DNA of 64,000 nt. Source: Bdellovibrionota bacterium (lineage in GTDB: Bacteria > Bdellovibrionota > Bdellovibrionia > Bdellovibrionales > Bdellovibrionaceae). The stretch lies in contig CAUJGP010000023.1 in the NCBI GenBank assembly GCA_963170155.1, positions 124,001 to 188,000 on the forward strand. Reading direction: 5' to 3'. Position 1 is the stretch's first letter. Each line of letters starts with the position of its first letter. The translations under genes were made by a program, and so were the position numbers. The notes below the pieces were generated by a model. That model was given only the letters and a program-made list of their open reading frames with translations, was not told the DNA's origin and ran no database searches. Below are positions 57,526 to 63,305 of the stretch, in pieces.

Positions 57526-58365
57526 ATGACCGAGATGACTTGCCCTCATTGCCAAATGGCTACGAATGCCCTAACACCCGTGAGTTCGGTGTTACGCCAA
57601 AAAATTAAGATTGCCCACTCGACAATGGTTTTACCAAATTCTCTTTGCGCTAATTGTATGAGTGAAATGAATGAATTGGCCGGCCAAGGGTCATCGGTGT
57701 TGATCAATGAAAAGACCAAAGAAGACTCTCGCGCCAAGTTGTGGCGAAGTCGGGTTTCTCTTTTGAAGAAAGCTAGAAACCTAATGAATCGAAAATCCTA
57801 CGGAGAAGCGATCATTAATTATGAAAAGTATCTGAGATTACTGGAAACTGTTTTCGAGGTGAAAGAAGCAGGGTTGAAGCCAGAGTTGTTTAAAGAGCGA
57901 TTAGCTACAAAAGAACTCACCATCATTGCTTCTGTTTATTGGGATTTATTGCGGGTGTATGACACCAATGAGAAATACCGTGCCCGAATGTTAACGACGG
58001 CGCAAAAATTGATTCAATTTGCACCTTATACCCCTATTGTAATTGATCTGGTTAAAAAAGCAGACTCTTACCGTGGCAAAGCGCGCAATCCTGAAATATT
58101 TAAAAATTTGTCTCGGGAGCTGATGTATAAGAAGAATTTTTGTTTCATTGCAACTTGTGTCTTTGAACAACAAAATGAGTGGCATTACATTGAAAAATTC
58201 AGATTGTTTCGAGATCGTTATTTACTTAAAACCCCTTGGGGAAGGAGTTTTATTTCGGTCTACTATCGGTTTTCTCCTTCTATCGTGAAAATCATGGAGA
58301 AGTTCCCGTTGATGAAAAAACCTGTGAGATTTATTTTAAAGGCTCTGTCGCAAGTATTTACTTAA
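57526..58365 (+). CDS. Zinc-ribbon protein with C-terminal CFI box
   Basis: A 279-residue protein. An N-terminal zinc ribbon (MTCPHCQM ... [10 protein letters not shown]) is followed by a helical, TPR-like middle ([20 protein letters not shown]). The C-terminal part is [10 protein letters not shown] then [20 protein letters not shown] and [13 protein letters not shown], matching the CFI-box C-terminal domain found in many surface or regulatory proteins. The CFI-box role is unknown. The gene overlaps panD tail to tail by eight bases. Confidence 0.8.
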
Positions 58366-58699
58366 TTCTATTTTTATTATCTACAAAAGTAACTGTAGGC
58401 TTGTGAAGTTTTGCTTCGTTCAGGGGCATGGTGCAGTAGCTGACAACAATAACAATATCACCTTTATGAACGTGACGAGCTGCCGCTCCATTAAGGCAAA
58501 CTTCTCCCACTTTTCCTTTGATCACATAGGTGGAAAAGCGAGCGCCATTATTACAATTATAAATATCCACTTTTTCATTTAAAAGAAAGTTGCAAGCTTT
58601 GATGAGCTTTGGACAAATGGAAATAGAACCTTCGTAATTTAAATCTGCATCGGTGACAGTAGCACGATGAAGTTTACTCTTTAACATTTCAATATGCAT
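58358..58699 (-). CDS. panD: Aspartate 1-decarboxylase
   Basis: A 113-residue pyruvoyl-dependent decarboxylase that makes beta-alanine for pantothenate. The self-cleavage site is YEGS, with Ser giving the pyruvoyl group; [32 protein letters not shown] and [11 protein letters not shown] are all conserved. AAGGA precedes the ATG by eight bases. It is the last gene of the pantothenate operon, 46 bases after coaX. Confidence 0.96.
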
Positions 58700-58745: not shown

Positions 58746-59534
58746 TCAAAAATGATTGAGGCCACTTCTATTTATTTTTAAAGCTTGTATAAGGCCTGTA
58801 ATGACCAGATCAGGGTGGACAACATTAAAAAGATTTTCTTTTTCAAAGAGACCAGCAAATCCACCGGTGCCGATGACAAAAGGTTTTTCATTTTGAAAAC
58901 ACTCTTGAGTGATGCGAGTCGTAATTTCTTTAATTTGCCCCACGTGGCCATAATAAAGTCCTGACTGAAGAGATTCGGTCGTGGAACGCCCTAAAACTGT
59001 AGTCATTGCCATAATTTCAACGGAAGGGAGTTTCGCTGTTTTAGCTTCAAGCGCTTCCATGGAAAGTCGGAGGCCGCCGATAATCACGCCTCCTAAATAA
59101 TCCTTAGCTTTAGTGATGGCACAAAAAGTGGTGGCGGTTCCTAAATCAACGATGATGAGTGGTTTTTCAGGGTAAAGATGGATTCCAGCGATGGCATTGG
59201 CGATTCGATCCGAGCCTACTTCTATAGGGTTACTGTACTTGATCTTGAGTCCAGTTTTGACTCCTGGTTGCAGTAAAAATGGAGTCACTTCAAAATATTT
59301 TCGACAAGCGCCTCGGAGAGAATAAACGACATCCGGCACCACGGAGCAAATAGCGATTTCTTGGATCAGGGATGGATCGATAGAGTTTTCTTTCAAGACG
59401 GATCTTAAAAAAAGACCATACTCATCTGAAGATGCGCCTGTTTTGGAGGTCTTTCTAAACTTTAAAATAATTTTATCTTTGTCAACGACACCACCAAAGA
59501 TTTGGGTGTTTCCAACATCAAGAGCTAGTATCAT
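58746..59534 (-). CDS. coaX: Type III pantothenate kinase
   Basis: A 262-residue CoaX that phosphorylates pantothenate to 4'-phosphopantothenate. It shows the ASKHA phosphate-1 motif [38 protein letters not shown] and [15 protein letters not shown]. Type III kinases are not inhibited by CoA and often replace CoaA. Its start overlaps the coaBC stop by four bases. Confidence 0.96.
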
Positions 59535-60934
59535 GGAGTTCGGCCTTTCTTTGAAAGATTTTTTTGATGGATGGTCTGCTGTATGATTTGTAGTAATGAT
59601 TGGGCTAACACTAAAGGATCCGCAAGAGAAGTTTTTTGATCTTGAAAGTAAAGGGTAAAGGGGTGCTGTCCTTTTTCTTTTTTGATATCAAATCGATCGT
59701 TATGAACAACAACATCGACACCACCTTCGTTAAAAATTTTATTAACAGCTTTGGCTCTTTCATCGATGTTTTGGGTGGAGGTAAATTTAAATCCTACGAC
59801 TAGAGGAGAATCATCATGGTGTTCTATGAGATTTTTCTTGGAGAGAATTGCTGAAGAGCCTTTAGCATTGTGTTGAGCCGAATCTGGTTTTTCTTTTTGA
59901 GAATAGCTTTTTAAAAGGGGGAGAATTTTAAAGTTAGGCTCTAATTCAATAGTCACTTTTTGATGAGATGAAATCTTCGAAGAGGTTGGGTTAAACTGCG
60001 CTTCTGTATTAGAAATTTTAGAGATATGAAAATCACTGACGGCAGCGGCATGGATAACAGCAGCGTAATCATGAGTGGAAAGATGATTTTTTAGTTTTTC
60101 ATTCAAATCATGAAAAGAAGAAAATATTGTTTTAAGACAAGAGTTTTTGGGTTGAACCGCTTGATGGGCACCTAGGTAGTGAACTTCAAAACCTTGATCG
60201 CAAAAAAATTCGGCTAAAAGAGCCCCTGTTTGACCTGTGCTCAGGTTTGTAAGAACCCTCATGGCATCGATGGGTTCTTGAGTGCCTCCGCTTGTAATTA
60301 ATATTTTTTGTTTATTTTCAAAGCTGTTTTTATTGCTTTGGGTTTGAGGGATATCAAGAGCCCTTGCAATTTCCTCTAGTATGTCTTCAGGCTCCATTAA
60401 TCGACCCGCGCCCACTTCTCCACAGGCAAGAGAGCCTTCTTCTGTTTGTAAAATTCGGAGTCCCCATTTTTTTAATCGATCTAAAGATTCTTGAGTAGAG
60501 GGATGCAGATACATGTTCGTATTCATCGCAGGAGCTACAAGAAAAGGTTTTTTAAAGTCATGAGCTAAAAACAAAGTGGAAACGAGGTCATCGGCAATGC
60601 CATGGGCCATTTTATTGATGATATTGGCAGTGGCCGGACAGAGTAAAATAAGGTCAGCCCAGCGAATGAGATAAATATGGTCCATTGCGTGTTGAGACGT
60701 AAAGGTTTCATTGAGAACCGTTTTCCCGGTGAGCCCTTCGAGAGTGGAGGTGCCAATAAAGTGAGAAGTATGAGGAGTCGTGGCGACCTGAACCTCATGA
60801 CCTTCTTGCACGAGTCTTGAAATAACAAAACAAGTTTTATAGGCCGCGATGGATCCGCTGATGAGAATCAAAATATTTTTTCCATTCTTATTGTTGAAAC
60901 TCAGATTATTTTTATTAATGTTCGATTTTGACAT
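59531..60934 (-). CDS. coaBC: Bifunctional phosphopantothenoylcysteine decarboxylase / synthetase
   Basis: About 467 residues. The N-terminal CoaC flavoprotein has [20 protein letters not shown], the catalytic His in [20 protein letters not shown], the substrate clamp [10 protein letters not shown] and the flap Cys in [14 protein letters not shown]. The CoaB half begins [20 protein letters not shown]. It makes phosphopantetheine from phosphopantothenate and cysteine. A low-complexity insert (about 340-370) is unusual. I preferred the ATG at 60934 with GAGG upstream; TTG at 60940 is possible. It overlaps panC by 20 bases. Confidence 0.95.
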
Positions 60935-61676
60935 TATCAATCAACCTCACTGCACCTAAATAGAGAGCGCCCAAGCGCCGATTTTCCCAATCCTCGATAT
61001 ACTCAACTCGAAACCCGTGCTCTTCAAGTTTTTGACGTGCCGCCTGAGCACTGGGTGCTGATTTTAAACATTGGTGGAAGAGCGGTGCACGCTGACGATC
61101 TTTGGGAGTGAGCCTTACATTTCTTGAACTCATGGCTAAACCGTCTGCTTCACGGCAAGTTTCGACAGGAACAATTTGAACTTTTAGAAAAAAGGCTTTT
61201 ACCATTTCTTGGATCAAGCGTAATTGTTGATAATCCTTTTCTCCAAAAAAAGCGGAGTGTGGTTGAACAAGATTCAACAGTTTCAGCACGATTGTTAACA
61301 CCCCATTGAAATGACCTTCTCGGTAGGCTCCGCAAAAAAGATGACTCCATTTTTTTTCAATTACTTCATAGAGATAATGATCTGGGTAGAGATCGTTGTA
61401 TTGGGGAATAAAGAGGGCATCCACGCCTTCTCGTTCAGCTAAAATTTGATCCGTTTCGAGGGTGCGAGGATAGTTTTCTAAATCCTTGGAATCATTAAAT
61501 TGAGTGGGATTAACAAAAATACTGAGAATGACATGATCACTTTGCTTGCGAGCTTGTCGCAGGAGAGAAGCATGTCCTTCATGAAGAGCTCCCATCGTGG
61601 GAACAAAGCCCACGGTGCCAGAAATTTTTTGGCGGAAGTGATTGAGTTCCTCGATTGTTCTTAAAATAGAAATCAT
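60915..61676 (-). CDS. panC: Pantothenate synthetase
   Basis: A 253-residue enzyme joining pantoate and beta-alanine. It shows VGFVPTMGALHEGHASLL with the HxGH ATP-binding motif, SIFVNPTQF, the FGEKDYQQL loop and GLAMSSRNVRL with the KMSKS-like loop. AAAAGGA precedes the ATG, which overlaps the panB stop as ATGA. Confidence 0.97.
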   Translation of the reverse strand: MISILRTIEELNHFRQKISGTVGFVPTMGALHEGHASLLRQARKQSDHVILSIFVNPTQFNDSKDLENYPRTLETDQILAEREGVDALFIPQYNDLYPDHYLYEVIEKKWSHLFCGAYREGHFNGVLTIVLKLLNLVQPHSAFFGEKDYQQLRLIQEMVKAFFLKVQIVPVETCREADGLAMSSRNVRLTPKDRQRAPLFHQCLKSAPSAQAARQKLEEHGFRVEYIEDWENRRLGALYLGAVRLIDNVKIEH

Positions 61677-62479
61677 TTATAAGATTCCTTTTCAGAGGGG
61701 AAATGCCCCTCGTGAGTGTCTCTAACATAGCTCTCAATGGCTTTTTGAAACAATTCTGCGCCGTTGAGATAGTGTCGCACAAACTTAGGTTGAAACTCTT
61801 GATTGAATCCCAAGAGATCATGGAGCACTAGAATTTGGCCATCCGTATTCGCACCAGCGCCAATTCCTATAGTGGGAATGGAGAGGCTTTGAGTCACTGC
61901 TTGCGCCAAGGTGGAAGGAACGCATTCCAAGACGATGGAAAAGCAACCCGCATCTTCAAGAGCAAGAGCTTGATTTTTCAAGTGTTCCGCTGCTTTGGGG
62001 TTTTTTCCTTGAACGCGAAAGCCGCCCATTTGATAGATTGATTGAGGTGTCAAACCAATGTGTCCCATGATTGGGATGCCCGATTGAACGAGATGCTTGA
62101 TGAGTTCGATGTTACCATCAGCGCCTTCTAGTTTGACAGCATGAACTCCTGTTCTCATCAGAGTTTCAGCGGCACTGACGTTGGATTCGAAAGACTTGCG
62201 GTAGCTCATAAAAGGAAGATCTCCCACGAGAAATTGATGAGGAGCCCCTCGAACGACAGCTTCGCAGTGGAGAGCCATCATCGCAAGATTCGCTGGAAGA
62301 GTGGTTTTGTGTCCATGTTGAACCATTGCTAAGCTATCACCAATGAGTAGAGCATCAATAGGAGAAGCATCAAGGAGTTTGGCAGACCAAGAGTCATAAC
62401 AGGTCACCATTGTTATCTTTTGACCGGATTCTTTTTTCAGTTGAAAGTCTGTAACCGATTGGACTTTAATGGGTGTCAT
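61673..62479 (-). CDS. panB: 3-methyl-2-oxobutanoate hydroxymethyltransferase
   Basis: A 268-residue PanB that makes ketopantoate from ketoisovalerate. It shows VTCYDSWSAKLLDASPIDAL, GDSLAMVQHGHKTTLP with the metal site, VKLEGADG, IMGHIGLTPQSIYQMGGFR and TIGIGAGANTDGQILVLHDL. The frame is open further upstream to 62635, but the ATG at 62479 with AGGAG ten bases upstream gives the standard family N-terminus. It overlaps the end of the DUF2520 gene by 14 bases. Confidence 0.97.
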   Translation of the reverse strand: MTPIKVQSVTDFQLKKESGQKITMVTCYDSWSAKLLDASPIDALLIGDSLAMVQHGHKTTLPANLAMMALHCEAVVRGAPHQFLVGDLPFMSYRKSFESNVSAAETLMRTGVHAVKLEGADGNIELIKHLVQSGIPIMGHIGLTPQSIYQMGGFRVQGKNPKAAEHLKNQALALEDAGCFSIVLECVPSTLAQAVTQSLSIPTIGIGAGANTDGQILVLHDLLGFNQEFQPKFVRHYLNGAELFQKAIESYVRDTHEGHFPSEKESYK

Positions 62480-63305
62480 GGGATTTTTTCTCCTGTGTTT
62501 TAATCGGTGAGCCAACGTTGGAACTAAAATATTTAGAGGCGAATTCAGGCCAGGCGAGTTTAATATGGGCTGTGAAAATTTCGTTGAGGTTTGTATTTTT
62601 AAGGGCTTCGAAATTTTTTTCCAAAGTGATTTCATCGCGACGAGCGATGGGTCCTGTTAACGCTTTATTCCAGTTTGTTTTAAGGTTCAGAGTAATGCTT
62701 TCAAGATAAGGCATTAAGATTTGATCATGAATCGCAAAATTCTTTTTAAATTCTTCTAAAGCAGCTTGCCAAAGCAAGACTGTGAGATTTCCACTGGCAA
62801 CACATAGGCCATGGTAGAGGGCTTTAGCATTCTTTGGAATGTAAAAACTGGGATTCGGAAGACCTGGAAGATAGTCCGTTAATTGATGCGACGAAGAATC
62901 AAAATGAGCAAAGGGAATCTGTGGATAAAAATCAGGTTCAAATAAATCATCTCCAAAACTAATAAGAGGATGAATATTAGCGACCCCAGGGATGTCAAGA
63001 CTTCCAGAAAAATGAAGAGTCTTGGACGTGCGTAAAAAAGGATATCGTATTAAAAACTCTTCGATGGCAGAGTCTTTGATCAACAAGAGGGTATGATGAC
63101 TTGTTTCATGAAGACTTCGGAGCTCTACCATTTTTTGCTGTAGTTCTTTATCAGATGTTGAAGGAAAAGAAATGGATCTCGGGTTTAAGTCTTTAGAGTG
63201 CCAATGACAAATATCGAAGTGAAGTTGTGTGAGATAAAAATGAATGTGTTTGGCCGCACGGCCATTTCCAATAATTAAAATTTTTTCGCGTGGTACCTGT
63301 CTCAT
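62466..63305 (-). CDS. DUF2520 Rossmann-fold protein, candidate ketopantoate reductase
   Basis: A 279-residue protein. Residues 8-30 form a nucleotide-binding strand and loop (KILIIGNGRAAKHIHFYL). The C-terminal helical half has ALYHGLCVASGNLTVLLWQA and LTGPIARRDEITLEKNFEAL, hallmarks of the DUF2520 family, which resembles 6-phosphogluconate dehydrogenase-like and ketopantoate reductases. It heads a panB-panC-coaBC-coaX-panD operon that otherwise lacks the reductase between PanB and PanC. It is not a classical PanE. The loop reads GNGRAAK rather than GxGxxG, so NAD(P) binding needs to be proven. AAGGAC precedes the ATG. Confidence 0.85.
   Translation of the reverse strand: MRQVPREKILIIGNGRAAKHIHFYLTQLHFDICHWHSKDLNPRSISFPSTSDKELQQKMVELRSLHETSHHTLLLIKDSAIEEFLIRYPFLRTSKTLHFSGSLDIPGVANIHPLISFGDDLFEPDFYPQIPFAHFDSSSHQLTDYLPGLPNPSFYIPKNAKALYHGLCVASGNLTVLLWQAALEEFKKNFAIHDQILMPYLESITLNLKTNWNKALTGPIARRDEITLEKNFEALKNTNLNEIFTAHIKLAWPEFASKYFSSNVGSPIKTQEKKSHDTH

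Follow-up and report, generated by a model that had tools for sequence, protein, structure and literature searches.

Which protein reduces ketopantoate in a bacterium whose pantothenate operon seems to lack a gene for precisely this step? The question is raised by the window analysed here, a stretch of 64,000 nucleotides from a member of the Bdellovibrionota, in which an operon on the minus strand runs in the order panG-panB-panC-coaBC-coaX-panD. The gene at its head, which we propose to name panG, was delimited as an open reading frame of 279 codons at 62466-63305 (minus strand; 279 amino acids) and assigned as a putative ketopantoate reductase of the DUF2520 family (PF10728) by Pfam, alignment and a held-out profile. 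It is followed, on the same strand, by panB (ketopantoate hydroxymethyltransferase, 61673-62479, 6e-105), panC (pantoate--beta-alanine ligase, 60915-61676, 7e-87), coaBC (59531-60940, 4e-85), coaX (type III pantothenate kinase, 58746-59534, 2e-96) and panD (aspartate 1-decarboxylase, 58358-58699, 3e-46). Each of these five genes is matched in both Pfam and NCBIfam, which bears out the first-pass annotation in its description of a complete pan operon with a DUF2520 gene in first place. The coupling to panB that it described also agrees with the coordinates, as the stop codon of panG (62466-62468) falls within panB, whose start codon lies at 62477-62479, giving an overlap of 14 bases. An AGGAG motif located 10 bases 5' of the panB ATG (62490-62494, minus strand), and hence inside the DUF2520 gene, is likely to serve as the ribosome-binding site of panB. 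The coaBC gene is single in the window, and appears to be split into two adjacent reading frames, coaC and coaB, in several relatives (L077, L083, L076 and L089).

We consider it highly probable that panG encodes an NAD(P)H-dependent ketopantoate reductase that converts 2-dehydropantoate into D-pantoate, and that it is the sole enzyme of a recognised family to do so in this genome. According to this proposal, PanB would make 2-dehydropantoate, PanG would reduce it to D-pantoate, presumably with NADPH as the cofactor, and PanC would join D-pantoate to the beta-alanine supplied by PanD.

The genome that holds the window comprises 2.85 Mb and is listed as 100% complete. A search of the whole of it for panE and ilvC found neither, since ApbA_C, the C-terminal domain of PanE, and KARI_C, which marks ilvC, are both without a match. 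The earlier remark that no PanE-like gene is seen can therefore be extended to the entire genome. The single weak ApbA match was rejected as a PanE candidate, as it sits in a ProC-like protein that reads as a pyrroline-5-carboxylate reductase. Judged by family membership, the organism has no recognised ketopantoate reductase besides PanG. The genome is also devoid of ilvD, and canonical valine synthesis is thus missing; 2-ketoisovalerate would probably be obtained from valine by transamination and not de novo. One class IV aminotransferase is encoded; among the NCBIfam models, those of branched-chain aminotransferases fit it best, each with a score below its cut-off.

The family assignment rests on residues 149-245 of the window protein, which match DUF2520 with an E-value of 4e-12 and 46.4 bits against a gathering cut-off of 25. 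Pfam returns no match of this protein to PF02558 (ApbA), PF08546 (ApbA_C), KARI_N or KARI_C, and NCBIfam contains no model for the PanG family. A search of solved structures with a single PanG sequence gave no useful match, so that a family profile was needed; this profile matches 3D1L (1.9e-25) and 2I76 (3e-19), whose annotations go no further than putative NADP oxidoreductase and hypothetical protein, respectively.

In order to place the protein within this family, we reached a Francisella operon by way of the PanC sequence of the solved chain 3n8h, which we took to be of Francisella origin; its 88% identity to PanC of Francisella philomiragia bears this out. The F. philomiragia operon reads panG-panB-panC-panD-coaX, and its first protein is a DUF2520 member (8.7e-16) which, on the grounds of operon slot, family and genus, we regard as the orthologue of FTT1388. 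The window protein and this F. philomiragia protein share an identity of 36%, a modest value, over 249 aligned columns (E 2e-49), and the tree leaves the place of the Francisella protein and the inner branching of the PanG family unsettled. A profile of 35 further sequences, with both the window and the Francisella proteins excluded, gives 249 bits to the former and 250 to the latter, as compared with 92 and 72 bits for the DUF2520 chains 3D1L and 2I76. As far as sequence can settle the matter, the window protein is very probably an orthologue of PanG, and the comparison with PanG that the first-pass annotation had left undecided thus comes out in favour of orthology.

The activity of the Francisella enzyme and the connection of PanG to DUF2520 are already published: a genome paper describes a Corynebacterium DUF2520 protein as homologous to Francisella PanG (FTT1388), which, in the passage of that paper citing Miller et al. 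(2013), has been shown to convert 2-dehydropantoate to pantoate (PMC4572677). With PanG and its place in DUF2520 already in the literature, the window gene does not represent a new discovery. The name calls for some caution, as the 'PanG' of a Bacillus subtilis paper is YkpB, which is placed there in the PanE orthologous group and hence differs from the DUF2520 PanG (PMC11487621). Both Francisella genomes examined also carry ilvC, so that in these two PanG may share the reduction with a second enzyme.

The distribution of PanG was followed across 144 genomes of the phylum with a completeness of at least 90%, 128 of which carry panB. PanG is found in 66 of the 144, and all 66 have panB, none has ilvC and two have panE; the 16 genomes that lack panB lack PanG as well. 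Its gene immediately precedes panB in 65 of these 66 genomes, an arrangement that can therefore not be due to chance, and 64 of the 66 encode no ketopantoate reductase of any other recognised family. A homologue of ketol-acid reductoisomerase (KARI) occurs in 56 of the 128 panB genomes, of which none carries PanG and one carries panE. Three of the 128 have panE alone, and three have none of PanG, KARI or panE by Pfam; one of the latter (G055) does carry panG upstream of panB, which leaves two. The mutual exclusion of PanG and KARI among panB genomes is strong, with a Fisher value of 7e-30, to be read with the relatedness of the genomes in mind, as this deprives the counts of independence. The two remaining genomes, G072 (locus L070) and G091 (L071), encode panB and panC with no PanG, PanE or KARI found, which may reflect gaps in the draft assemblies or yet another ketopantoate reductase. 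Outside the phylum, DUF2520 and PanC are fused into one protein in two actinobacterial MAGs, with panD as the next gene (L040:5137-6939 and L039:5137-7080).

This pattern bears directly on an alternative reading, in which the DUF2520 protein acts as a reductase in a different pathway and is merely co-transcribed with the pan genes, while some unrecognised promiscuous dehydrogenase reduces ketopantoate. The breadth of the DUF2520 family and the vague annotation of its two solved members would accommodate such a role, which we nevertheless hold to be very unlikely in view of the strict co-occurrence with panB, the mutual exclusion with ilvC, the near-invariant place upstream of panB, the same slot in Francisella and the fusion of DUF2520 to PanC. 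Taken together, the lack of panE and ilvC in the genome, the homology to the Francisella protein, the phylum-wide pattern and the fusions support the earlier proposal that PanG is the missing ketopantoate reductase.

The protein also keeps the residues that mark the family. The N-terminal GxGxxA Rossmann motif is present as IIGNGRAA at residues 11-18, and G13, G15, D78, S100, H112, P113 and F117, all invariant in 37 aligned PanG proteins, are kept in the window protein, as are the likewise invariant N151, Y164, H165, G218, P219, R222 and D224. The pair G13 and G15 is part of the dinucleotide motif, and the active site may comprise the GPxxRxD stretch and YH. The Pfam score (4e-12, below that of most relatives) and the low-confidence C-terminal tail of about 20 residues might suggest a pseudo-enzyme that no longer catalyses a reaction and acts in the pan operon as a regulator or in the manner of a chaperone, but this is hardly credible for a protein that keeps all 14 invariant family positions from G13 to D224 in a genome with no other ketopantoate reductase family. 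The structure of PanG was modelled from two sequences, those of the window and of Francisella; with a mean pLDDT of 60 the model is poor, and it supports no more than a beta-alpha-beta order in the N-terminal half and helices after it. Foldseek found no significant fold match with this model, and its top matches, to KARI, were not counted as evidence. Given the quality of the model, the dinucleotide site is supported only by the sequence motif and by homology.

The lineages without PanG point to a second solution for the same slot. Among the 56 genomes with a KARI homologue, 39 of a sister lineage have it immediately upstream of panB (for example L056:4845-5813, minus strand; L057:4704-5588, minus strand; L065:3581-4516, plus strand; and 36 further genomes), giving an operon of the form KARI-panB-coaX-coaBC-panC. 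All 39 are without ilvD and PanG, and all but one are without panE; ilvD is in fact absent from the 144 phylum genomes, as opposed to 14 of 14 control genomes that have it. The one protein of this kind compared with the ilvC equivalog model of NCBIfam, from L056, reaches 178 bits against a cut-off of 226. The 23 panB-adjacent KARI proteins examined keep the expected metal-site residues, and in all of them the second proline of the APKxP motif is replaced by isoleucine. A further 17 genomes, also without ilvD, have their KARI homologue away from panB (such as L067:3448-4383, L096:5139-6092 and L097:3935-4786), with alanine at that proline position in six of the seven examined. Since IlvC reduces ketopantoate as a side activity (PMC4306246), the KARI of the slot resembles one turned into a dedicated ketopantoate reductase, and may be a candidate for such repurposing. 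We find it likely that the phylum, with no ilvD in any sampled genome and hence no canonical valine synthesis, fills the reductase slot ahead of panB with two unrelated and mutually exclusive enzymes, either PanG or, in sister lineages, this divergent KARI as a dedicated ketopantoate reductase. In many of the KARI-type operons coaX is very divergent and matches the family profile with E-values between 1e-8 and 1e-20 (L056:3439-4164; L058-L060; L103-L115); NCBIfam nevertheless identifies the one tested as a type III pantothenate kinase.

Altogether, these observations account for the step that seemed to be absent from vitamin B5 synthesis in this organism, which would be filled by a known kind of enzyme. 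They also give strong genomic grounds for extending the name PanG to DUF2520 proteins encoded ahead of panB, and the contrast between PanG and the KARI-bearing sister lineages would be a clean example of a single operon slot filled by non-orthologous displacement.

Among known systems, the closest is Francisella PanG (FTT1388), with which the window protein shares the DUF2520 family, the slot directly upstream of panB, the invariant residues and the identity measured against F. philomiragia. The two differ in what follows panB, namely panC-panD-coaX in Francisella and panC-coaBC-coaX-panD in the window, and in an insertion near residues 40-60 and the C-terminal tail of the window protein. The solved chains 3D1L and 2I76 belong to the same family by profile, but fall by score outside the pan-operon subfamily. 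IlvC may have the reaction in common with PanG (PMC4306246), but belongs to a different family that is absent from the window genome. PanE/ApbA differs in its Pfam domains, yet resembles PanG in the proposed reaction and in the predicted succession of a Rossmann domain and a helical C-terminal half.
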